NCBI GenBank assembly: GCA_029861865.1 | Contig: JAOTYL010000001.1 | Coordinates: 1 to 64,000 of the forward strand | Source: Myxococcales bacterium | GTDB taxonomy: Bacteria > Myxococcota_A > Polyangia > Polyangiales > Houyiibacteriaceae | Direction: 5' to 3' | DNA length: 64,000 bases | Shown here: positions 1-27,629 of the stretch, one piece after another | Position numbering within the stretch: the stretch's first letter is position 1 | Layout of the letters: every line of letters begins with the position of its first letter | Notes under the pieces: generated by a model | The model's database searches: none | What the model was told of the DNA's origin: nothing | The model's input: the letters and a program-made list of their open reading frames with translations, nothing else | Made by a program: the position numbers and the translations under genes

Positions 1-103
1 GGACTTATGTCCGCTCCGACTTGAAGCAATCCAGTCCCAACCGAGTCCCGCGCAGGAAAAAGGGGACAGTCCCCTTTTTCCTGTCAGTGCCAGTGTCAGT
101 GCC
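1..103. repeat. 103-bp direct repeat, copy A
   Basis: Bases 1-103 are identical to 5938-6040. The copy contains a short GGACTTATGTCC palindrome at its left end, a long palindrome at 53-83 and the first units of the hexamer array. The window starts at base 1, so the repeat may extend further left. The two copies bracket the transposase, reverse transcriptase and mobilization genes. Confidence 0.95.
53..83. repeat. 31-nt palindrome with GGGGACAGTCCCC core
   Basis: Fifteen-base arms pair perfectly around a single central A: an AGGAAAAAGGGGAC arm, extended by one C/G pair, faces its complement. As RNA or single-stranded DNA it would form a very stable hairpin. The same core recurs at 5990-6020 and, with different outer bases, at 41334-41352. 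Palindromes of this kind are typical substrates of Y1 REP-type transposases, and one such gene lies at 480-1397. The pairing of palindrome and enzyme is inference. Confidence 0.9.
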
Positions 104-216
104 GGTGCCAGTGCCAGTGCCGGTGCCAGTGCCAGTGTCAGTGTCAGTGCCAGTGCCAGTGTCAGTGCCAGTGTCAGTGCCAGTGTCAGTGCCAGTGTCA
201 GTGTCAGTGTCAGTGT
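85..216. repeat. CAGTGY hexanucleotide array, 22 units
   Basis: Twenty-two head-to-tail hexamers, mostly CAGTGC and CAGTGT with a few CGGTGC variants, directly follow the palindrome. The open frame through it (a Pro-Val-Ser-Val polymer) is a by-product of the repeat, with no credible start or domain. I treat the array as non-coding. Confidence 0.95.
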
Positions 217-479
217 TACAGCAAAAGATCTGACCTACAAAAAGATCAAAAGATCTGACCGAGGTTGGCGCTGTTCAAAGCGAGACGTCGACGAGGACGC
301 GAGCACGACTCGAGGCGGTTCAAGTACGATGGTCTGCATCCATGGCGCGTCGGATGCTTGTAGACCGTTGAGTGTCGGAGTCGTGCAGCGACCGAACATT
401 GCAATTGCAGCATCGTGAACGCACGTCGGCTCCGCCGCAGTGGAAGCCGTGGCTGATCGCGCTACGACGGCCTAGAGGC
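217..479. other. Intergenic DNA with a short direct repeat
   Basis: This stretch separates the hexamer array from the 3' end of the Y1 transposase gene. The 13-mer AAAAGATCTGACC occurs at 223-235 and again at 248-260. Nothing else coding or structured is evident; open frames here are antisense to, or read into, the transposase. Confidence 0.6.
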
Positions 480-1397
480 CTACGGCCCCGGTCCACACCG
501 GGCACCGTGGTACACGCGCATCCACCAGGTGCCTTCGGGGAAGCAGACGCTGCGGTCTCCAGCGGTCCACCTCGCGAGGGCGCGTTGGTACTGCGCCGCA
601 AACGCGCGCAGACGCTTGACCGCTTCGGTCGCGGCGCTTCGATGCCCGGCCGCCGCAAATTGCGGATTCAAGCTCCCAAACACTTCGTAGCTCTTGGCTC
701 GCTTGGTGTGTGCGAGTCGCAGCACGCGCCTCGGACCCACAAAGGCCATGCCGGTGCGCTTGGCCTTGTTCCAGGCTTGATGTTGCCGCTCCCGCACCCG
801 TTCGGTGATGCGCTCGCGCGCGAGCTCTGCACCATAGTCGAGCTCGAGTGCGACCGGCATCTGCAGCCGAAGCTCGATGACCTCGGGCCACTCGGGGTTG
901 TTGGGGTCGAAGTAGTGCGCGGGCCGCTCAGCCCGGATGACGCGGGTGCCGATGTGTGCTGGGAGCGTGTGTGCCCCAGGCCAGTCCTTGGCGTAGCGTA
1001 CCGCAAGCGCTTCGACCGGGTTGGCGATGAGGTACGCGATCGACTCGATCATCGCCTCCGGGGTCACAAGGGCATGGGCGCCGCTACTTCGTTTGTTGAA
1101 GACTTCCTCGGGCCATCCCCGGTAGGCCTTGGTGCACAAGGCAAGATTGCGGTGAAAGGTCTGTAGGAATCGTGGAAGCTCGCCCCGGACGTCGGTGACG
1201 ACCTCGTGCGAGTGGGTCGACATGAGGCAGGCGGCGTGGACAAGGACGCCATGAAGCTGCGCGGCATGAGCTAAGCAATACCAATAGGCTTGCTCCATCT
1301 GCCGGGACAGATCGGGATTGAGCAAGAAGTGGCGACGGGTGGTGCGCCGAGACAGGGCGAGAGTGGTCCCGGGGTCCACGATACGAGGTCGTGTCAT
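480..1397 (-). CDS. REP-associated / IS200-like Y1 transposase
   Basis: This 305-residue protein resembles the Y1 transposase family (IS200/IS605 TnpA and REP-associated RAYTs), single-strand nucleases acting through a catalytic tyrosine. The N-terminal half has the usual layout: an RRTTRRHFLLNP start, a Tyr-rich helix, then MSTHSHEVV at about residues 59-67, which takes the place of the HUH metal-binding motif. The later IANPVEALAV segment matches the family's I..NPV motif. The C-terminal 100 residues are Arg-rich. Start is the ATG at 1397; no good Shine-Dalgarno precedes it. REP-like hairpins lie just upstream. No terminal inverted repeats of a classical IS are visible. The non-hydrophobic Ser between the two His residues is slightly atypical, so activity is uncertain. 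Confidence 0.75.
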   Translation of the reverse strand: MTRPRIVDPGTTLALSRRTTRRHFLLNPDLSRQMEQAYWYCLAHAAQLHGVLVHAACLMSTHSHEVVTDVRGELPRFLQTFHRNLALCTKAYRGWPEEVFNKRSSGAHALVTPEAMIESIAYLIANPVEALAVRYAKDWPGAHTLPAHIGTRVIRAERPAHYFDPNNPEWPEVIELRLQMPVALELDYGAELARERITERVRERQHQAWNKAKRTGMAFVGPRRVLRLAHTKRAKSYEVFGSLNPQFAAAGHRSAATEAVKRLRAFAAQYQRALARWTAGDRSVCFPEGTWWMRVYHGARCGPGP

Positions 1398-1532
1398 ACC
1401 GTCTTTGACAGAAGCGAGAATGATGCCAATCGGGTCTCTCCTGGTTTCGCGGACTTAGGCGGCTCCCCGTGGCGGATGGACGGTCGCCCGCCGGCGGACG
1501 CCAACGCACGAAACTACCGAGCAATCTGTGAG

Positions 1533-1562
1533 GCACCGCCACGTTTTCCGCAACGTCGGTGC
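1533..1562. repeat. REP-like hairpin, copy 1
   Basis: GCACCG-CC-ACGTT pairs with AACGTCGGTGC around a short TTCCGC loop, leaving a two-base bulge in the left arm. An imperfect stem of this size with a conserved head sequence is what REP/BIME elements look like, and it sits next to a RAYT-like gene. Confidence 0.7.
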
Positions 1563-1689
1563 GATCTTTGTTTCGTTTTGTGCCAATCGGGTCTCTCCTG
1601 GTTTCGCGGACTTAGGCGGCTCCTCGTGGCGGATGGACGGTCGCCCGCCGGCGGACGCCAACGCACGAAACTACCGAGCAATCTGTGAG

Positions 1690-1719
1690 GCACCGCCACG
1701 TTTTCCGCAACGTCGGTGC
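1690..1719. repeat. REP-like hairpin, copy 2
   Basis: This is the second copy of the same 30-base hairpin, identical in its stem to the one at 1533-1562. Confidence 0.7.
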
Positions 1720-1746
1720 GATCTTTTGTTCCGAGCAATCTGTGAG

Positions 1747-1776
1747 GCACCGCCACGTTTTCCGCGACGTCGGTGC
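1747..1776. repeat. REP-like hairpin, copy 3
   Basis: This third copy has a single change in the right arm (GACGT for AACGT), which weakens one stem pair. It belongs to the short unit 1731-1790, which lacks the left part of the 157-bp repeat. Confidence 0.65.
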
Positions 1777-1969
1777 GATCTTTGTTTCGTTCCTGGCATC
1801 GCCATCGGAACCTGTTTACAGCCACAACGGGTCCTGCGATGATGGCCTACTCGGGTCAGGCGCGGAAACGCATCGTGCCTGCTGACGCCCTTGCCGACAC
1901 CGGCATCGGCTTGTTTGTCGACGTCCTTGCCGTCACTGGCATCGGCGCCATCAGGAAAGGGACGGAACC

Positions 1970-2776
1970 ATGAGGAAAGTTTTGATTTCTGCGACCCTGG
2001 CCTTGGCCACCGTGGCCGTGATGCTGGTCGCCGCTGGGGCGACCGAGGCGAAGGGACCGAAAGCGAGCTTGCTTTCCGCGACCGAGTGCGCGCTCGACCT
2101 CGGCATGGGTAGTGCCACGTTGGTGGTCACGACCACGCTGACGAACCAGAGCAGCGGAAATGTGATTGCGGAGGTGCGAGAAGAGGGCGTGATTGAGGGC
2201 ACCTTCAAGGAAGTGGGTTCCCGTGGCAACACGAACCTCACATTTGACGACGCCCCCATCTACCCGGCGGAGGTCGACCCGCAACTGACGATCACTGAAG
2301 AGTTCGACATCTGCGACGTCTTCCGCGTTGCCAGGGAGCTGAATGCCAAGGCCACCGTCAACTATGGGGTCTCAGGCGGCGATGAAGCGACACGAACCGT
2401 GATGAATCGGTGTACCGATAACCCGGACACGGAGGAGGATGAGGGTCCCATCTACGTGGAGGACTTTTTCGATCAAATCGAAGCGGCCTGTGCAGCCGTG
2501 GCGTGCCCCTGCCAAGAGGCGTACGATGCCGTCGTATTCGACCCCGCACCGGACAGATGCGAGACCGACAACTTAGAAACTGCGACGCTGACAAACGTTA
2601 GCATCAACAACCTAAGTCCCGACACACTAAGACAGGAGTCAACCCATATATGCATAGCCGCACAGGACGGGCTGAATACTGAGTTTATATTCGTATCCAG
2701 CGAGGAGGCAAGCGCCTGTGTCCAAGCCATTCTTGACCGCGCTACCGCTGAAGGCGTGATGTGCACAGTGTTTTGA
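1970..2776 (+). CDS. Secreted cysteine-rich protein of unknown function
   Basis: This is a 268-residue protein with a clear Sec signal peptide (RK at the N-terminus, then a hydrophobic run ending in AGATEA). The mature part holds ten cysteines, including a CPC pair, suggesting a disulfide-bonded exported protein. I recognise no family. A purine-rich GGGACGGA lies just upstream of the ATG. The gene converges with the reverse transcriptase gene and their 3' ends overlap by 35 bases, so the last dozen residues, including a terminal MCTVF, are encoded opposite the RT C-terminus. The first two thirds have ordinary GC-rich codons, but about 2565-2770 is distinctly AT-richer (AATACTGAGTTTATATTCG). 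That change suggests a chimeric or recently altered 3' end. Confidence 0.7.
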   Translation: MRKVLISATLALATVAVMLVAAGATEAKGPKASLLSATECALDLGMGSATLVVTTTLTNQSSGNVIAEVREEGVIEGTFKEVGSRGNTNLTFDDAPIYPAEVDPQLTITEEFDICDVFRVARELNAKATVNYGVSGGDEATRTVMNRCTDNPDTEEDEGPIYVEDFFDQIEAACAAVACPCQEAYDAVVFDPAPDRCETDNLETATLTNVSINNLSPDTLRQESTHICIAAQDGLNTEFIFVSSEEASACVQAILDRATAEGVMCTVF

Positions 2777-3746
2777 GTATGGTTGGGTGTCGGGTCTCTG
2801 GGCACCGCGCCCACCCGCACCACCTTCTGATGTACGCGTCCAACCGGGGGGAGCCGCAAGGCTCCCTCCGGTCCTGCTCGTAAAGCCGGTGCGCACGTTC
2901 GAGGAATCGCTCCACCGTCGCCCGCGCCAGCGTGAGCCGGCCAGGCGCGAGGTGGTAGCCGAGGAAATCGAAGCCGCGCTCGACGCGGCCGATGAAGGTC
3001 TTGTCCTGGGCTTTCTCCAAGCCTAGGCCCGTGAGTGTCTCGTTCACGATCTTCACCGCGCGGCGCAGTTTGTGGCGCGTGGGCGCGAGCACGATCACGT
3101 CGTCCATGTAACGGACGAAGAAGAGGCCGGTGGCTTCGACGCGCTGGTCCAGCTCCGCCAGGAAGAACGCACCGAGCAGGGGGGAGAGCGGGCAGCCGAG
3201 CGGGATGCCGCGCCGGTGCTCGAAATAGAGTCCGCCCCGCTCGGCGACCCGCCCGCACATCTGGCCCACGAGGTTGAGCACGTCGCGGTCCGGGACGACG
3301 GCCGCCAGTCGATCCAGAAGCTTCACGTGGTCGATCGAGGCGTAGTAGCTCGCCACGTCGGTCTTGAGCACGAAGCGTGCGCTGGGGAGCTGCCGCATGA
3401 CCCGGCGCACCGCGGCCTTGGCGCCCCCGTTGCCTTTCACGTGGACGCAGCGGCGTGAGACGGACAGGCGCTCGTCGAGCACGGCGGCCAGCGCCTTGAG
3501 CACCAGCGCATCGCGGGCCGACCACAGGTCGATCTCCTCGCCACTCTCGCGAGTGACGCGCTCCTGCAGCCCGAAGCGAAAGCGCCCGCTGCGCAGCTCC
3601 GCTTGCACCTCGGACTTCTCCGACGGCCAGGTACGCCGGAACGACCAGACATCGGCCACGTCGGGCCAGCGCCGCCGCTGCGTGCAGAGCCAGCCGTAGG
3701 CGCGGTCGAGCACGGCGTCCGAGGCCAGGCGGTCGGTGAGCCTCAT
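2742..3746 (-). CDS. Reverse transcriptase, group II-intron-like, unclassified
   Basis: A 334-residue RNA-directed DNA polymerase. Ordered RT motifs are visible: the RCVHVKGNGGAKAAVR block, LKTDVASYYASIDH (motif A, catalytic Asp), RGIPLGCPLSPLLGAFFL where group II RTs have PQG, FFVRYMDDVIVLAPT (motif C, YMDD), and RVERGFDFLGY near the thumb. It has no endonuclease domain and no obvious maturase domain, and no intron RNA was recognised around it. The motif is also not the SQ-type motif of diversity-generating retroelement RTs. It therefore fits the stand-alone group II-like RTs whose functions are mostly unknown. It lies downstream of a relaxase and overlaps the secreted-protein gene tail to tail. 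Start is the ATG at 3746. The tail after RRWCGWARC may be an extension into the neighbouring gene. Confidence 0.85.
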   Translation of the reverse strand: MRLTDRLASDAVLDRAYGWLCTQRRRWPDVADVWSFRRTWPSEKSEVQAELRSGRFRFGLQERVTRESGEEIDLWSARDALVLKALAAVLDERLSVSRRCVHVKGNGGAKAAVRRVMRQLPSARFVLKTDVASYYASIDHVKLLDRLAAVVPDRDVLNLVGQMCGRVAERGGLYFEHRRGIPLGCPLSPLLGAFFLAELDQRVEATGLFFVRYMDDVIVLAPTRHKLRRAVKIVNETLTGLGLEKAQDKTFIGRVERGFDFLGYHLAPGRLTLARATVERFLERAHRLYEQDRREPCGSPRLDAYIRRWCGWARCPETRHPTILKTLCTSRLQR

Positions 3747-3997
3747 GCGTGGCGGTGAAGACTACCGCCCGAGCCGCGATCCTCAGAGCCGGCGATCCAC
3801 CACCATTGACAATATCTCGGTAAACAGTGGCGGGTGTTCTTGCGGCGCTCTGGGGGTAAAGGAGACGGGTCTTTTCTCGAAGTCGCGATGCTTTGCGACG
3901 CCCGGCGTAGAGACCACGATATGACAGCGCAGGGCACGCGCTGGAGCGAAGCCCGCGCTGCATTCGGCGTCTAGCATACACTTCTTCATTCTATTCC
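3747..3997. other. Intergenic DNA between relaxase and reverse transcriptase
   Basis: About 250 bases lie between the relaxase stop and the RT start. The right part is AT-richer than its surroundings (TTCATTCTATTCCCTATATGG near 3985-4005). No intron domain V-like hairpin, template repeat or convincing small gene was recognised. If the RT copies its own transcript, this is where a non-coding RNA would most naturally sit. Confidence 0.5.
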
Positions 3998-5239
3998 CTA
4001 TATGGAATGGTTGGAACGGCCTCGTTCCGGCTCTCGTCGCCGCAGAAGTCGAATCGCACGAGCGTCGCGGTGTGCGGCGCGACTCGCGACGAAATGACGC
4101 CATGTGCCGGGGTGCGGAGTCTTCTGAATCGCCCTCCGTTCGGCTGCGAGCGTCCGCTTGAGGGCCCGGGATTCGATGGCTTGGCGGAGCGCCAGTTGTT
4201 CCAAGAGTCGTTTCCGGTCGCGGCGGGACACGGGTAGGGTGGCGATCCCGCTCCGCTGACGACGATACCTCCGCTTGAGTTGTCCACGCTCGCGAGAGGC
4301 GGCGTCTCGGTAGCTGCTCCAGGCGTGTTCCCGCTGCAGACGGGCCTGGTCGAGGGACTGCTCGTATTCCTTCCACAAGCCCTGCGGCGCGATGGCCGGG
4401 ACGGGGGAATATCGCCGAATCGCGGTTCTTGCCGCTTCCAGGTGATGCGCGGGCGCTGGCTGGAAGGCTCCGAACCGTTGGCAGAGGCGCGGCTTGCTGA
4501 GCTCGCGGCCGACGAATGACGCCTTCACACGGACGCCCCGCTCAACGTCCTCGAAGACGAGCCCGTTGCCATGCAGTCGAAGCACAACGCCAAGACGGGC
4601 GCACGTCTGATGTAGCTCGTCCCAGCTCCGCAACTCCCCGGCCTGAAGGGCGGGACCGAGCTTCTTTCGGGCCCAGCGAGCAAAGCTTTCGATCCCGTGG
4701 TGGGCTTCGCAGTCCGCCGCCCTCTGCGGGACTTTCTCACGATCGCGCACTCTGGACTGAAGCGGCGTGAGTCCGAGCTCTGGTTCAAGGACACGGCCCG
4801 CGGTGAAGAGCTTCTGGTGATCCCACGCCGGCGAGTGAATCCGAAAGGTCTCCGGGTGGATCTTGTGGATGGCCACGTGCACATGCTCGTGGTCTTTGTC
4901 GTTGTGACGGGCGGCGATGTACTGGTGGCCGGAGAACCCCAAAGTCTCCACCAGGTTTTCCACAACACGCCTGAGCTCGTTCCCGTTGAGGCTTCGGTCC
5001 TCCGGGTGAAGGGAGATGACCATGTGATACGTGCGGTTGTTGCCCGCGCGGGTGTTCTGCGCATGCACGGCCTCGACGAGTCGGCACGCGAGCTCAAGGT
5101 CGCCGGGCCCGGTCACGCCAGGAAGATTGGCGGCCAGGAACCAGGTCGCGCGCGGCTTGTCGCTTCGACCCCGAATGTAGCGCCCGAGCTGACGAAAGCC
5201 TCGGTTGCTTGCCGATGCACGTTGGTGCCGAATTATCAC
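3998..5239 (-). CDS. MobP-type relaxase (IncP TraI-like)
   Basis: This 413-residue protein begins with a relaxase domain like TraI of IncP plasmids. It carries a Tyr in LGRYIRG at about residue 21 (candidate nicking tyrosine), RTYHMVISLHPED, and the metal-binding motif RHNDKDHEHVHVAIHK. It would nick one strand at oriT and pilot it for conjugative mobilization. The chosen start is the GTG at 5239, because it overlaps the stop of mobC (GTGA), a translational-coupling arrangement. A longer frame to 5269 is open but less likely. The second half is basic and partly coiled. It ends well short of full-length TraI and has no primase domain, so it is either a short mobilization relaxase or a truncated one. 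Confidence 0.85.
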   Translation of the reverse strand: MIIRHQRASASNRGFRQLGRYIRGRSDKPRATWFLAANLPGVTGPGDLELACRLVEAVHAQNTRAGNNRTYHMVISLHPEDRSLNGNELRRVVENLVETLGFSGHQYIAARHNDKDHEHVHVAIHKIHPETFRIHSPAWDHQKLFTAGRVLEPELGLTPLQSRVRDREKVPQRAADCEAHHGIESFARWARKKLGPALQAGELRSWDELHQTCARLGVVLRLHGNGLVFEDVERGVRVKASFVGRELSKPRLCQRFGAFQPAPAHHLEAARTAIRRYSPVPAIAPQGLWKEYEQSLDQARLQREHAWSSYRDAASRERGQLKRRYRRQRSGIATLPVSRRDRKRLLEQLALRQAIESRALKRTLAAERRAIQKTPHPGTWRHFVASRAAHRDARAIRLLRRREPERGRSNHSI

Positions 5240-5697
5240 GGATGGCCTGCTAAACGCTCGACCGCCCAACGGACTTGGATGATGGAGTCGAGAAGCTCGA
5301 GGTTCAGCCTGTTGTGGCTGGATGGATCAGACACGCCCTCCCGGATGGCGAGCTTGAGGAGGCCGCCGATGCGGTTGAGGTCGGCGTGAACCCGCGAGAC
5401 CTCGGTAAGGGCTTGCGCGTCGACTGTACTTTCGAGGCGAGCGGTCCTGAGACAGCGTCGGAGGACCTCTGCGCGCGAACAGCTCGTCTGTTGAGCGAAG
5501 GTGTCGAGCCGACTGAAATCGTCCTCGTCCATGCGGAACGAAACCATTCGGGATTTCTGCTTCCTGTGGGCGCCAGGTTCGAAATTTAGATGGCCTACCG
5601 AGTGAGGTTCGACGGGCAAGGTCGAGCTCGGCTCGTTGACCTGACGTTGACGTGGCGATCTGAAATCAAGTGATTTGGCGTGACGAGTGGTGAACAT
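5236..5697 (-). CDS. MobC/TraJ-like relaxosome accessory protein
   Basis: A 153-residue protein encoded immediately before the relaxase with a four-base overlap. RMVSFRMDEDDFSRLDTFA followed by SRAEVLRRCLRTARL is a ribbon-helix-helix DNA-binding pattern. The next part, VHADLNRIGGLLKLAIREG, is the MobC-type helical segment, in which N.IG.LL is typical. It should bind oriT and load the relaxase. The first 45 residues are low-complexity, and the true start could be the internal Met before VSFRM. Position and motif together make the assignment good. Confidence 0.8.
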   Translation of the reverse strand: MFTTRHAKSLDFRSPRQRQVNEPSSTLPVEPHSVGHLNFEPGAHRKQKSRMVSFRMDEDDFSRLDTFAQQTSCSRAEVLRRCLRTARLESTVDAQALTEVSRVHADLNRIGGLLKLAIREGVSDPSSHNRLNLELLDSIIQVRWAVERLAGHP

Positions 5698-5760
5698 GGC
5701 GATGCAGGTAAGTCCCGACGATTGTTGGTAATTGGTTTAGATCATTACAGGTAAGAGAAG
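5698..5760. other. Candidate oriT region upstream of mobC
   Basis: Mobilization operons usually carry oriT just upstream of the accessory gene. Here the 8-mer CAGGTAAG occurs twice in direct orientation (5705-5712 and 5748-5755), with an inverted repeat GTAAT/ATTAC (5728-5732 and 5744-5748) between them. No nick sequence could be assigned. The call rests on position and repeats. Confidence 0.35.
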
Positions 5761-5782
5761 CGTAGCGATCGTGGGTTCAGCG

Positions 5783-5806
5783 ACTTCGAATCCCGCCCCC
5801 GGCACT
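5783..5806 (+). other. tRNA 3'-end-like fragment, possible attachment site
   Basis: TTCGAATCCCGCCCCCGGCA followed by CTA reads like the T-loop, 3' T-stem strand and 3' acceptor strand of a bacterial tRNA. The bases before it (GCGAC) do not pair with CCCGC, so only the 3' part of a tRNA is present. Integrated elements that target tRNA 3' ends leave exactly such a fragment at the distal end, next to the mobilization genes. An intact tRNA would then lie left of this window. Resemblance by chance cannot be excluded. Confidence 0.35.
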
Positions 5807-5937
5807 ACCTAACAGGCCTGCAAGTGCGGCTTAGGCGTTCCAGGTGTTCGAGTTGGTTGCACGGGACTCGCACCCGTCGGGTGTACTCGCCCCGCGTTGC
5901 GTGGCTGCGTACTGGGGCTGGATGGCTTCAGCTCCGC
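5807..5937. other. Intergenic DNA, weak tRNA-like arm
   Basis: No gene is seen. On the minus strand near 5850-5880, ACGGG-TGCGAGT-CCCGT could fold as a T-arm with one change from the usual TTCGA loop, but no complete cloverleaf follows. Confidence 0.4.
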
Positions 5938-6040
5938 GGACTTATGTCCGCTCCGACTTGAAGCAATCCAGTCCCAACCGAGTCCCGCGCAGGAAAAAGG
6001 GGACAGTCCCCTTTTTCCTGTCAGTGCCAGTGTCAGTGCC
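5938..6040. repeat. 103-bp direct repeat, copy B
   Basis: This copy is identical to bases 1-103. Perfect identity over 103 bases, 5.9 kb apart, implies recent duplication, gene conversion or recombination. The copies diverge only inside the hexamer array. Confidence 0.95.
5990..6020. repeat. 31-nt palindrome with GGGGACAGTCCCC core, second copy
   Basis: This is the same perfect 15-base-arm palindrome as at 53-83, inside direct repeat copy B. Confidence 0.9.
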
Positions 6041-6207
6041 AGTGCCAGTGCCAGTGTCAGTGTCAGTGCCAGTGCCAGTGTCAGTGTCAGTGTCAGTGTC
6101 AGTGCCAGTGTCAGTGTCAGTGTCAGTGTCAGTGTCAGTGTCAGTGTCAGTGCCAGTGTCAGTGCCAGTGTCAGTGCCAGTGCCAGTGTCGGTGTCAGCG
6201 TCAGTGT
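6022..6207. repeat. CAGTGY hexanucleotide array, 31 units
   Basis: About 31 hexamers run from the palindrome to just short of the isomerase gene stop at 6225. The count differs from the 22 units of the first array, as expected for slippage-prone repeats. Long open frames through it on both strands are artefacts. Confidence 0.95.
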
Positions 6208-6224
6208 CCGAGCACGAGTGCGCG

Positions 6225-6824
6225 TTACCGGAGGCCTAGGGACCAGGCTATCGCCGCTCCTAGGCGGTCGTTGCCCCAAAAGAGCTCTTTGCCGACTGTG
6301 AAGCTTGGGGCGCCGAAGATTCCGTGGTGCTTGGCTTCCTCGGTTTGGGCGCGGAGTCGTTCTTTGTTGGTGGGCGCGTCGGAGGCCTCGATCACGGTGG
6401 CCGAATCGCGGCCGAGGTCGGTCAGGATCTCTGCGAGCACACCCGTATCGGAGATTTCACGATCCTCGGCGAAGTTTGCGACAAAGACAGCGCGGGTGAG
6501 CTCCGCACACCAACCCTCATCCGCAGCGATGCAGGCGATGCGTGCTGCCCGTAGCCCGTTGCGCGGAAAAACCGATGGTCGGCTGAAGTCGAGCGCATAC
6601 TCGTCGCAAAGCCGCTCGAGGTCCCGCCACATGTAGCGACCCTTCGTGGGATAGATGTTGAAAGGTGAATCGTTCCAGCCTTGCTCCGCGAAGATCGGGC
6701 CAAGCAAGAAAGGCCGCCAGACCAACTGCGCGCCAGCCGCGTCAGCCACGGCTTCGATGCGCATTGCAGATAGATAGGAGTACGTGCTCGCGAACTCGTA
6801 CCAGAAATGAACCGGATCCTTCAT
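6225..6824 (-). CDS. 2-hydroxychromene-2-carboxylate isomerase-like (DsbA/kappa-GST family)
   Basis: A 199-residue thioredoxin-fold protein of the DsbA/kappa-class GST family, matching glutathione-dependent 2-hydroxychromene-2-carboxylate isomerases (NahD). It has VHFWYEFASTYSYLSA at the N-terminus, where Ser replaces the DsbA CxxC, VWRPFLLGPIF, an all-helical insert, and GIFGAPSFTVGKELFWGNDRL with the cis-Pro loop and the WGNDR motif at the end. Family members act in aromatic degradation, but no such pathway genes are nearby, so the substrate is open. It is flanked on both sides by hexamer arrays; one ends 17 bases beyond its stop and the other begins about 25 bases before its start. Confidence 0.85.
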   Translation of the reverse strand: MKDPVHFWYEFASTYSYLSAMRIEAVADAAGAQLVWRPFLLGPIFAEQGWNDSPFNIYPTKGRYMWRDLERLCDEYALDFSRPSVFPRNGLRAARIACIAADEGWCAELTRAVFVANFAEDREISDTGVLAEILTDLGRDSATVIEASDAPTNKERLRAQTEEAKHHGIFGAPSFTVGKELFWGNDRLGAAIAWSLGLR

Positions 6825-6849
6825 CGGTGTTCGGACCCTAGCAAGAAGG

Positions 6850-6951
6850 CAGTGACAGCGACAGCGACAGTGACAGCGACGGTGCCGGTGCCAGTGCCAG
6901 TGCCAGCGACAGTGTCAGTGCCAGTGTCAGTGTCAGTGTCAGTGTCAGCGA
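6850..6951. repeat. CAGYGN hexanucleotide array, 17 units, degenerate
   Basis: About 17 hexamers of the same CAGTGY type lie here, with more CAGCGA and CAGTGA variants on the left. This locus lacks the 103-bp repeat and the palindrome. It lies in the promoter-proximal region of the isomerase gene and just past the 3' end of the esterase gene. Confidence 0.9.
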
Positions 6952-6997
6952 GACCGCCGGTGTTGGGGGCGGGTCCGGATCTCCGGACCCTGATCTA

Positions 6998-8908
6998 CTA
7001 CTCGCAGACTATGACCACGTCTTCGCCTTGTTGCTCGAACGGAGGCGCTAGCGGGTCCGGTCTTGGGTCGCCGTCGAGCAGCAAGCCACAGTTTTCGCAA
7101 AGGACGTTGGTCCAGTTCTCATCACGGCCGTCGGGGCCGCTTGCCAGCATAGCGTTGACCCAGTCGACAACGGTTGGGACGTTGCCCGTGATGTCGTCAT
7201 AGACTTTGTTGTTGCCAAACATCGTGTGGCGCGAACCCGTGCCAAAGTAGTAACGGTAGTTGTCTGGGACAACGTCAAACGTCTGCACCGACTGTGCCAG
7301 CGCTACGCGGCCAAACGCACAGCTGGCCTCCCACCAAGTGAGCCCGCCAACCGGGCTACCGACCAGCATGATATTATAGAAACCGGTCTGGCCTCCCGAG
7401 CCTCCATCATGCAAAGTCGAGTAGTGCGCCCAGTTGGTCTCGGGAAACTCGGTGGCGACCGCCTCGGTGTAGGCCGGCATGCCGCCCATTTCGGTAATCG
7501 CCTCGAGAACTCCGGGGATGTCCGGCAGGTTTGCGTCGAAGTTCCAGTTGCTGAACTCGTTTTGCAGAAAGTCCTCAGTGATGACGCCATTGCCCGCGTC
7601 GGCGAGCACGTGAATCTGCGATGCGGGCCAGACCTCGTGGAGTAGCGGTCCGTTGAACCAGGCGCCGTACGCCCCGGCGCTCGAGCCCGTCACCAACACC
7701 TCTTCGGGATTGAGGAAATGCTCCCGCGCCCATTTCTCGGCGACCTTGGAGTTGTGATAGCCCTTGTGCTCAACCGTGAGGCCGCCGTAATCCTGCGTCG
7801 TGTCACCGAAATGGACGTCGCAACTGCAGTACGAGACGAACACGACGTTCCAATCGCGGAACGGGTTGTTTTCGTTCGTCAGATCCGCAAAACCTGTGGC
7901 AAAACCGTTCAGGTCGGCGGGGGGTGAGGTGCTGCAGGTCGGGAGGTTGCAGGTGAGACTGTCCCAGCATGCGCCTCCGCCCATGTAGTACATCACCACC
8001 TTATTGACGCTGCCGCGCTTTGCGAAGTAGCGATACTCGTCGCCCTGCATGCACTGGGGCGTGTACGTTCTTCCGAGATAATCGGTCGCTCCCGGTAGGA
8101 GCGCAGTGTACTGGTCAGCGGCCAGGCCGGGCGTCACGATCGTATTTTGTACGAGCTCGTCGGTCAGTCCCTGGAGGTCGTCACGAACGCCGGTATCGAT
8201 CGCGGTCGTTGGGCAGGTTCCGGAGGTGGCCCCGGCCCAGGCCGTCAAGAAGGCGTCAAAGGCCGCACTCTTGGCAACATCGAGGGTCGAGCCGTCCGCA
8301 TCGGCGTATAGGTCGCTGATATGCGCGCCCTCAGCGGCGAGCACGTCGTCGCAGGCGTCGCCTGCGGCGGTGAGCAGGGCAGCCCCACATGCAGCTTGCT
8401 CGGCTTGCCCGAGGTCCAGCCCATCATTGATGGAGCCGGCGATCAAAGCGATCGACGCTTCCATGGTGGCGCCCGCGTCGCTCGACGTAAGGGCCAGATC
8501 CGAGCAATCGGCGTCGTTGGCTTCGGCGTCCGACTCGGCGGCGCCCCACGCGTTTCCTAGGTCGGTAGTGGCAGCGGCAACCGCAGAGTTTCGCGCGTCG
8601 GCGTCTTGGTCGGTCTCCCAGCCGGCCCACGCGTCGAATACGGACTTGCAGAACGTGCTCGCAGCCGCCTGTTTTGCACCGACGCAGATGCTGCCCGCGT
8701 ACGGTGCTGGCGGTACCTCGCCGCCTGAGCCGCCGCCGCCCATGGCCCCAGTGCCCCCGGTCCCTGGGGCGCCGCCGGTCCCTGGGGCGCCGCCAGTCCC
8801 TGCGGTGCCGCCAGTACCTCCCGTTCCGTCACTGGAATCGCTATCGCTACAGCCGACATGTAGCGCCAGCGGAATCGCAAGTATCAACGCAAGTTTCAAA
8901 AGTCTCAT
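6998..8908 (-). CDS. Pectinacetylesterase/Notum-like lipoprotein hydrolase
   Basis: A 636-residue exported lipoprotein. The signal peptide ends at LALHVGC (lipidated Cys about residue 20), followed by a Gly/Thr-rich linker (TGGTGGTAGTGG and similar) and a Cys-containing helical domain of about 200 residues. The catalytic part resembles the pectinacetylesterase/Notum family of alpha/beta hydrolases, with VVMYYMGGGACWDS near the oxyanion site, FVSYCSCDVHFG, the nucleophile elbow VTGSSAGAYG, and late Asp and His residues. It probably deacylates an extracellular ester. The start is the ATG at 8908, because GGAGG lies five bases upstream; an in-frame GTG six bases earlier overlaps that site. The exact substrate is unknown. 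Confidence 0.85.
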   Translation of the reverse strand: MRLLKLALILAIPLALHVGCSDSDSSDGTGGTGGTAGTGGAPGTGGAPGTGGTGAMGGGGSGGEVPPAPYAGSICVGAKQAAASTFCKSVFDAWAGWETDQDADARNSAVAAATTDLGNAWGAAESDAEANDADCSDLALTSSDAGATMEASIALIAGSINDGLDLGQAEQAACGAALLTAAGDACDDVLAAEGAHISDLYADADGSTLDVAKSAAFDAFLTAWAGATSGTCPTTAIDTGVRDDLQGLTDELVQNTIVTPGLAADQYTALLPGATDYLGRTYTPQCMQGDEYRYFAKRGSVNKVVMYYMGGGACWDSLTCNLPTCSTSPPADLNGFATGFADLTNENNPFRDWNVVFVSYCSCDVHFGDTTQDYGGLTVEHKGYHNSKVAEKWAREHFLNPEEVLVTGSSAGAYGAWFNGPLLHEVWPASQIHVLADAGNGVITEDFLQNEFSNWNFDANLPDIPGVLEAITEMGGMPAYTEAVATEFPETNWAHYSTLHDGGSGGQTGFYNIMLVGSPVGGLTWWEASCAFGRVALAQSVQTFDVVPDNYRYYFGTGSRHTMFGNNKVYDDITGNVPTVVDWVNAMLASGPDGRDENWTNVLCENCGLLLDGDPRPDPLAPPFEQQGEDVVIVCE

Positions 8909-25584: not shown

Positions 25585-25588
25585 GAAC

Positions 25589-26158
25589 TTACTCCTCCAC
25601 CCCGGAGGGGCCGCCCTCGCGATCGTACGCATTGACGGCGAGCTTGGCGCTGTAGCTCGTTCGAAGCCGTGCGCCGTCCAGTTGAATTCGCTCGATGGCG
25701 ACTGGATAGGAGCTGTTCTTGATGTCCGCCAGCATGTCGATCAAGGGCCGAAGCTCCACGTTAGGCAGGGATACGCGAACCGAACGACGGCTATAGTTGC
25801 CCATGTCGAGCTTGGGTTGGTCGGTGATCGACAATCCGCTGACGCCGTATTGCTGGGCGCTTTCTTCGAGGAACCCACCAAGCGACGGAGTTTTGCGGTT
25901 GTAGAGGCGTTCGACGGCGCGCCGCTCGGCCTTCTGTTGCTGGAGGCGTGCCTCTGACCGATAGATGTCGCTCAGAACCTCGTTGATGTCGGTGTTCTCA
26001 GTCTCGATGTCCGAGATGGTCGCCAGCATCAGGTACATCGGCACGACTAACGACATCAGGGCGAAAACGGAACCCATCATCACCAGCAAGCGTCGTTCGC
26101 GTTGGTTGAGGGTATCAAACCAGCCGCGCAGGTTGTCGAAGGCGTCGCCAAAAGCCAT
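25589..26158 (-). CDS. gspM: Type II secretion system protein GspM
   Basis: A 189-residue bitopic inner-membrane protein: a short cytosolic N-terminus with LNQRERRLLVMMGSVFAL leading into a transmembrane helix, then a coiled coil rich in Gln/Arg/Ala and a ferredoxin-like periplasmic domain. It pairs with GspL to hold the GspE ATPase to the inner-membrane platform. It starts immediately after gspL (the two are one base apart). Confidence 0.85.
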   Translation of the reverse strand: MAFGDAFDNLRGWFDTLNQRERRLLVMMGSVFALMSLVVPMYLMLATISDIETENTDINEVLSDIYRSEARLQQQKAERRAVERLYNRKTPSLGGFLEESAQQYGVSGLSITDQPKLDMGNYSRRSVRVSLPNVELRPLIDMLADIKNSSYPVAIERIQLDGARLRTSYSAKLAVNAYDREGGPSGVEE

Positions 26159-26159
26159 C

Positions 26160-27629
26160 TCAGCCTCCCTCAGCGATGGTTGTAGGCCCGCTTGGGCAGT
26201 CGATCTTGACGACTACCTTGTAGTCCTTGCGGTCTTCTGCTGCGGTCGAAATGGAGCCCTTCTCGACCTCTGCGAAGCACCGGTGACTTTGGAGCTCGTC
26301 GACGATTCGATCGCGTTCAGCGATGGATCCTACCCTTCCTTGGATCTCGAACCGGCCGCTATTGCCTTCGTCGTCGATTTCGATGAGAAGTCGGCGTGTG
26401 TCGTGTGCGATCTCGACTGGGATGCTCTCGGAGATCGCCTCCAATACGTCGTACGCGTCGAAGCGGGGTAATGGGTCGTCCACCCTCGGCCCCGCGGTGA
26501 GCAGCTCTCGCGCGTGCATGGCGCTCCGCGTTTCCTCCCCGAGAAGATCTTCGCTCACCGAGGCGAGTTTTTCGACTAGTTGCTCGTGCTCGGCGTTAGC
26601 AACCCGATAGCGGGCCAGGAGGGAGATACCGAACGACAGCACGACGGCCGCCGCGCAGATCGCGATGAGGCGTAGGTTCTTGCGGATCTGCCCCGCTCCA
26701 ACTTTCGAGGCGAATTCGCCTTGGAGGAGGTCGAGCTTCTTCTTTCGAATGGTGGCGCGGGCCGCTAGCGCCGCCGCCCGCGCAAACTTGGGTTCGTTCT
26801 CGTCATCGGCTCCGGGGGCAGATGGCAACGGAACGACGCCGCATTCGATGCCGAGTTGGCTTGAGAGCCATCGCCTGGCGCTTTCCATTGGAGCCGTTTC
26901 ACCGCATGACAGGATTAGATCCGGCTCTTCGGAGCGCTGGGCTCGGTAGCTTGCGAGCGTCCGCTGGAGTGAAGACCCGAGCTGCTCGCGGCGTCCCGAT
27001 TCGACCAGATCCATCCCTCCCGATACGGTGCGTGCGAATGTGCACTCGCCTCCGTGGAGCACGCAGAAGTCGGTGTTTTGGTGTCCGACGTCGATCACGA
27101 GCAAAGTACGATCTCGCATCGACTCCGGCAGCAGCGGCCCGAGTCCGTCGAAGCAAGACGCGCCGACCGCCAGCTCTCCCGGATTCACCCCCACAGCCTG
27201 AAGCTCGCGCAGCCGGCTTGCGACCATTTCGCGAGGGACAGCGACCGCCATGACCTGAACGTTCGTCGCGTCGCGGCCGACGATTTGATGATCGACGATC
27301 GCGTTTTCAATCTCGAATGGCAGCACGGATTCGAGCAAGCCGGGCAAAACCTCGCCGACTCTCTTTTCGATCCCGGCCGGCAACTCGACTAAACGTAGGG
27401 AAGCCGACTGTCCGTCGAGCGCGGCGATGATCCGATCCGGTGACCGTGGGCTTTCACTGATGACCTTCCGTACTGCCGCCCGAAGCTGGTCGACGGTAGC
27501 ATCGGAGTCGTTCGGGCTCGAAAGCGCAGTCTCGGCATAGCGCTCGATCTCGAACCCGCGCAGGCTCGTCCGCAAGAACGCTCCTCGGACCGCCCGCGGT
27601 GTTACTTCTAAACCAAGAACCAATGACAT
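26160..27629 (-). CDS. gspL: Type II secretion system protein GspL
   Basis: A 489-residue protein. About residues 1-270 form an actin/PilM-like cytosolic fold (LVLGLEVTPRAVRGAFLR at the start, LLVIDVGHQNTDFCVLHGGE at about 170-190). A membrane helix follows (LIAICAAAVVLSFGISLLA, about 317-335), then a periplasmic ferredoxin-like domain. It binds GspE in the cytosol and GspM in the membrane. The DVGHQNTDF loop retains nucleotide-binding-like residues, closer to PilM than to proteobacterial GspL. Confidence 0.85.
   Translation of the reverse strand: MSLVLGLEVTPRAVRGAFLRTSLRGFEIERYAETALSSPNDSDATVDQLRAAVRKVISESPRSPDRIIAALDGQSASLRLVELPAGIEKRVGEVLPGLLESVLPFEIENAIVDHQIVGRDATNVQVMAVAVPREMVASRLRELQAVGVNPGELAVGASCFDGLGPLLPESMRDRTLLVIDVGHQNTDFCVLHGGECTFARTVSGGMDLVESGRREQLGSSLQRTLASYRAQRSEEPDLILSCGETAPMESARRWLSSQLGIECGVVPLPSAPGADDENEPKFARAAALAARATIRKKKLDLLQGEFASKVGAGQIRKNLRLIAICAAAVVLSFGISLLARYRVANAEHEQLVEKLASVSEDLLGEETRSAMHARELLTAGPRVDDPLPRFDAYDVLEAISESIPVEIAHDTRRLLIEIDDEGNSGRFEIQGRVGSIAERDRIVDELQSHRCFAEVEKGSISTAAEDRKDYKVVVKIDCPSGPTTIAEGG

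Follow-up and report, generated by a model that had tools for sequence, protein, structure and literature searches.

The stretch of DNA analysed here (64,000 nucleotides, referred to as the window) carries two convergent genes, one encoding a reverse transcriptase (RT) and the other an apparently exported protein (Table 1). The original prediction had described an RT with the motifs YMDD and GIPLGCPLSPLLG, which overlaps tail to tail by 35 nt with the gene of an exported ten-cysteine protein, and the ORF coordinates confirm this arrangement. The RT, which had been regarded as unclassified, can be assigned: residues 9-314 match the RT_UG4 profile with 352.8 bits (E 3.5e-106), whereas the runner-up profile reaches 140.5 bits. 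Five reference UG4 loci score 298-450 bits against the UG4 profile. With this profile far ahead of those of the other classes, we conclude that the RT belongs to class UG4.

Table 1 Features of the RT locus, with positions in the window.
Feature	Position	Strand	Basis
Exported ten-Cys protein, 268 aa, putative variable partner	1970-2776	+	ORF, hydrophobic N-terminus
3' part of partner gene, foreign-looking composition, possible cassette	2560-2776	+	GC
Tail-to-tail overlap of RT and partner genes, 35 nt	2742-2776		ORF coordinates
UG4 reverse transcriptase, 334 aa, YMDD	2742-3746	-	Intact ORF; UG4 profile match
Covariance-model match, UG4 junction RNA	2821-2908	-	49.8 bits, E 3.4e-11
Folded junction, 140-nt context	2832-2896	-	P1, P2 and P3 in best predicted fold
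P1 GUGCGC/GCGUAC	2896-2891 with 2837-2832	-	Window fold
P2 GCUU-UAC-GAGC	2886-2876	-	Window fold
P3 hairpin	2872-2843	-	Window fold
MobP/TraI-type relaxase	3998-5269	-	Upstream of RT, same strand
NikA-like accessory gene	5236-5697	-	Upstream of RT, same strand

The RT is the only one of its kind in its genome, and UG4 RTs are scarce in Myxococcota, the other convincing cases in 377 genomes being truncated or broken copies. Its nearest relative (L002) is degraded and lies where a 6-kb contig ends; no exported neighbour was seen there. The dN/dS ratio of UG4 RTs (0.07-0.15) indicates purifying selection. The C-terminal 20 residues of the window RT, which span the gene overlap, lie outside the UG4 domain and have no counterpart in relatives. 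Structure models from single sequences were of low quality (mean pLDDT 43 and 37) and were set aside. A group II intron was rejected, in agreement with the original prediction: neither the intron RNA (domain V/VI) nor any other Rfam RNA was found in the window, or in 2500-4100 at E values up to 1, and the match to the group II maturase profile TIGR04416 (101.9 bits) stays below the cut-off of 300. An RT that falls inside a known intron family with an intact intron nearby, which had been named as the outcome speaking against a new system, was not seen.

The N-terminus of the partner protein is hydrophobic with an A-x-A type end, as judged by eye, and its cysteines number 10 in total. The gene has no match in Pfam, NCBIfam or PADLOC. 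A conserved family of cysteine-rich partners was rejected, since homologues are absent from 57 genomes (its own and those of relatives) and from 72,556 plasmids; this lack of conservation could be explained if the partner is the variable part of the system. The GC content of its 3' part (2560-2776) is 51%, compared to 61% in the rest of the gene and 70% in the RT gene, and 0.4% of same-size windows are as low. Such a foreign-looking segment would fit a cassette, but is by itself a weak indication.

The relaxase and the NikA-like gene probably belong to a mobilisable element by which the module was brought in, and lie outside the UG4 module itself. On the other side, a gene similar to REP-associated tyrosine transposases (480-1397, minus strand) scores below the curated cut-off and adjoins repeats of 61 and 151 nt with 92-98% identity (1424-1791). 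In addition, the region of RT, relaxase and transposase lies between the two copies of a 215-nt direct repeat (1-215 and 5938-6152, 96% identical), which contains the palindrome CAGGAAAAAGGGGACAGTCCCCTTTTTCCTG as well as (CAGTGN)n tracts; the contig starts within this repeat.

A predicted three-way-junction RNA inside the RT gene

Embedded in the UG4 coding sequence, at its 3' end, is a conserved RNA, predicted to fold into a three-way junction with one invariant hairpin and two covarying stems. All eight relatives that were folded (8/8) give the same junction, which consists of a basal stem P1, the hairpin P2 (GCUU-NNN-GAGC) and a long variable hairpin P3. The best fold of the window RNA at 100 nt differs, but P1, P2 and P3 are all present in a context of 140 nt. 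Across UG4 the invariant P2 is given as GCUU-UAU-GAGC, the loop in the window being UAC. In the codon alignment the hairpin corresponds to CGG-CTT-TAT/GAG-GAG, and Leu288 is encoded by CTT in 22/22 genes, although CTT makes up only about 4-20% of the remaining leucine codons of these genes. A single hairpin at one homologous site of all RTs, our first idea, was superseded by the junction. The original prediction had pointed to a small structured RNA near 2740-2800 or 3747-3997; the junction lies on the RT strand and adjoins the first interval, and the second, a candidate ncRNA interval, has no Rfam match.

In an alignment of 23 sequences, standard pairs occupy 86.7% of the pair cells, compared to 39-49% when the partners are slid against each other, covariation amounts to 0.342 (0.09-0.12 slid), and 11 of the 16 pairs show double changes. 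For 35 distinct sequences aligned by a covariance model (CM) the values are 81.4% and 0.318, in an alignment that leans to the model by which it was made. Synonymous-codon resampling with the proteins held fixed gave 63.8 ± 1.8% pairing and a maximum of 70.1% in 1000 resamplings, so that coding fails to explain the pairing. With respect to the strand, 55 GU cells allow pairing in the RT-sense RNA alone and 2 AC cells in the antisense alone, which argues for an RT-sense RNA and disfavours an antisense RNA or a DNA cruciform.

Since the window sequence is among the 23 rows on which the CM was trained, the independent weight rests on three held-out loci, which match with E values of 2e-20 to 2e-14. 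Of all loci searched, the model hits UG4 loci and their remnants only. In 377 genomes the noise lies at about 27-34 bits, the range of matches in three genomes (G073, G028 and G308) that lie in no UG4 RT, compared to 49.8 bits for the window. An RT fragment next to the gene of an inverse autotransporter contains a decayed junction (29.8 bits, L117:602-686), as would be expected were the RNA to decay after the death of the RT. The junction RNA is absent from Rfam, and the CM also serves to detect UG4 loci, dead remnants among them. A second cluster of synonymous conservation lies at RT residues 77-81 of the UG4 alignment (codons GCC, GAT and CTG).

Exported genes and homology borders at related loci

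We examined the neighbourhoods of UG4 RTs in thirty annotated stretches and in six Myxococcota loci, and nearly every one of these RTs is followed immediately on its 3' side by an exported, adhesin-like gene. In plasmid fimbrial operons this gene is codirectional with the RT, and the partner resembles a two-domain tip adhesin in several cases and is unannotated in several others. In Salmonella, the partner is an inverse autotransporter gene, which is convergent, with an RT overlap of 19 nt in L100 and of 99 nt in L101; at a further Salmonella locus (L012) the RT match stops 10 nt short of the 3' end of the adhesin gene. The last gene of a Photobacterium fimbrial cluster is likewise convergent, with an overlap of 69 nt, and in family f31 of the Myxococcota the RT remnants converge with exported genes, most of which are of the PEP-CTERM type. 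In the window the exported gene is not fimbrial and has no homologues. Exceptions to the rule are L015 and L109, where transposases lie 3' of the RT, and the degraded contig end L002.

The constant feature is therefore an exported gene immediately 3' of the RT, and convergence is one of two orientations. Of the conserved two-gene system with a recurrent convergent neighbour that had been predicted, the stand-alone, non-intron RT beside an exported gene holds, but neither the convergence nor the cysteine-rich protein itself is conserved. Unrelated neighbours of the homologues, which had been named as evidence against such a system, were not seen.

Two further elements were observed at these loci. 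Genes of tyrosine-type DNA invertases lie upstream of Salmonella inverse autotransporters (L115:6310-6969 and 25587-26246), which suggests that the same adhesins may be subject to a separate on/off switch. A dispersed repeat of about 86 nt (79-91% identical; L052:8003-8088 with copies in L056, L071, L072 and L092) is found near several UG4 remnants of family f31.

Where related loci combine RT DNA of 76-97% identity with different partners, the homology ends 1-86 nt past the RNA. In the convergent Salmonella loci this end falls inside the RT ORF, and the C-terminal tails of the RTs are consequently unrelated. Twice, a divergent allele has taken the place of the adjacent adhesin domain, with flanks that are nearly identical and of which one consists of RT and RNA. 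Two adhesin genes of plasmid NZ_CP019190.1 are 100% identical over about 4.35 kb and 33-82% identical over the last ~1.35 kb, i.e. the tip region, before 95-100% identity resumes about 50 nt ahead of the stop codon and extends through the RT 3' end. Two E. marmotae plasmids are 95-100% identical (60-nt windows) in the upstream gene, the RT and the RNA, 47-72% in the N-terminal domain of the adhesin, 83-92% in its pilin-like domain and 97-100% from 8228 to ~8827. Three tip sequences are almost unique among the 72,556 plasmids. The differences in the tracts of two relatives affect all codon positions and the four bases at similar rates, with little or no adenine bias, which points to the replacement of divergent alleles and not to mutagenesis of the kind found in diversity-generating retroelements (DGRs). 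This variation is seen in relatives and not in the window because there is no second copy in its genome to compare; the genome holds a single copy, and neither a donor copy nor a relative of the partner was found in it.

RT copies also lie beside extra adhesin genes, where they are 5'-truncated at differing points and several retain the RNA. Two f31 copies in one genome share their truncation point, so that the duplication came after the truncation, and the Salmonella RT copies sit in duplications that cover the whole adhesin gene.

A tentative cassette-copying model and its alternatives

Our tentative reading, which we favour without considering it established, is that UG4 loci form a retroelement module, in which the 3' end of the RT gene is a recognition RNA that abuts a cassette for the variable part of an exported protein, and in which the RT copies this cassette. 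A read-through RNA would run from the junction into the neighbouring cassette, and the RT would bind the junction in cis within this RNA and copy the adjacent cassette, from a resident or an incoming donor copy, into cDNA. The cDNA could then recombine at the expressed locus, where RT and RNA would provide homology at one end and conserved parts of the gene at the other, and the cell would swap its surface protein and keep the machinery. Where a 5'-truncated RT copy with its RNA adjoins a further adhesin copy, this would mark a donor cassette. The sequences show to which class the RT belongs, how the RNA is built, that an exported partner recurs and that replacements in relatives are bounded on one side by RT and RNA, and we infer from them a replacement driven by the RT via cDNA. 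With somewhat less confidence, we extend the model to UG4 RTs as the possible core of an undescribed class of retroelements in Pseudomonadota plasmids and Myxococcota, which would copy whole domain cassettes beside an RT-embedded junction RNA and whose truncated copies would mark the donors. Several points count against cassette copying: the RNA flanks the adhesin sense strand in one orientation and the antisense strand in the other, transposases lie 3' of the RT in L015 and L109, and the exchange tracts look like ordinary allele exchange, for which no RT is needed.

The exchange tracts are accounted for equally well if adhesin alleles are exchanged between plasmids by ordinary homologous recombination under selection for new receptors, with the UG4 RT as a supplier of homology and RT and RNA engaged in other work, e.g. 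in the control of the expression of the RT or the adjacent gene. The tracts are indeed homologous alleles between identical flanks and carry no mutational signature, adhesins are commonly diverse where no RT is present, and the window genome has no donor. We nevertheless consider this explanation rather unlikely, as it does not account for the RT, the RNA or the recurrence: the same RT class and RNA occur by fimbrial adhesins, inverse autotransporters and PEP-CTERM proteins of different phyla, always on the same side, and the conservation of the RNA at that border would be left unexplained.

Two other explanations are less likely. The RT gene could be a selfish retroelement, with the junction as 3' recognition signal for target-primed reverse transcription beside genes of exported proteins and with 5'-truncated copies like those of LINE elements. 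Many copies are indeed 5'-truncated with an intact 3' end, and the carriers are relaxase elements or plasmids; we regard this as improbable, since the Salmonella copies lie inside duplications with the entire adhesin gene and the shared truncation point in f31 places the truncation before the duplication. Least probable to us is an anti-phage defence similar to that of DRT systems, in which RT and junction RNA make a protective cDNA and the linkage to adhesins reflects plasmid hot spots. PADLOC lists RT_UG4 among its DRT candidates, and in DRT2 the RT has an ncRNA next to it as its partner (PMC12039810). On the other hand, the curated DRT cut-offs are not reached, the neighbours examined are adhesin genes and not a defence island (one chromosomal copy in E. 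coli lies ~2.3 kb from an anti-phage gene), and we found no paper testing UG4 in defence in the open-access literature.

Comparison with known systems

Several RT classes lack a known function, and UG4 is among them. The class (Toro and Nisa-Martinez 2014, PMC4244168; myRT, PMC8934634) and its co-occurrence with fimbrial genes, which myRT found near 66% of UG4 RTs (PMC8934634), are already known, and UG4 itself is uncharacterised. The window RT belongs to the same class by profile; the sections of these two papers on which we draw describe neither an RNA within the RT gene nor the placement of the partner immediately 3' of it, convergent non-fimbrial partners or the border of variation. In the open-access literature, which leaves many subscription papers and bioRxiv preprints outside, we found no description of the RNA, the variation border or a function of UG4. 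The embedded RNA, the homology break after it, the replacement of adhesin domains and the truncated RT copies by adhesins thus appear to be new here, with priority to be checked. With a conserved RNA at the edge of a hypervariable adhesin gene, what was a statistic on neighbouring genes becomes a mechanism that can be tested directly, and if the model is true, the replacement of domain cassettes would join the known routes by which reverse transcription diversifies surface proteins.

A DGR such as that of the Bordetella phage BPP-1 (PMC3240598) likewise has an RT by a variable surface or receptor-binding gene and a structured element, with varying stem sequence, beside the variable part. This element is a DNA hairpin, in contrast to the RNA on the RT strand in UG4, and UG4 loci show whole-domain replacement instead of point changes. 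A DGR was rejected because the hallmarks tested, a template repeat of 1970-2776 within 1-7000, near-identical to the 3' end of the target gene, and adenine-directed substitutions in the tracts of two relatives, are absent.

Retrons and ncRNA-dependent DRT systems (DRT2, DRT9) resemble UG4 in that the RT has a cognate structured RNA in cis, but in UG4 this RNA lies inside the 3' end of the RT coding sequence and the partner is an exported protein. By curated profiles both were rejected for the window RT: Retron St85 scores 37.9 of the 235 bits needed, with no Rfam match for an msr-msd, and Drt2, Drt3a, Drt4 and Drt5 are all far below their cut-offs. Adhesin or pilin cassette systems of the pilE/pilS type combine one expressed surface gene with divergent copies elsewhere and conserved flanks, and operate by DNA recombination alone. 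UG4 loci share with them the expressed gene, the divergent copies and the conserved flanks, but in UG4 one flank is the RT gene with its RNA.
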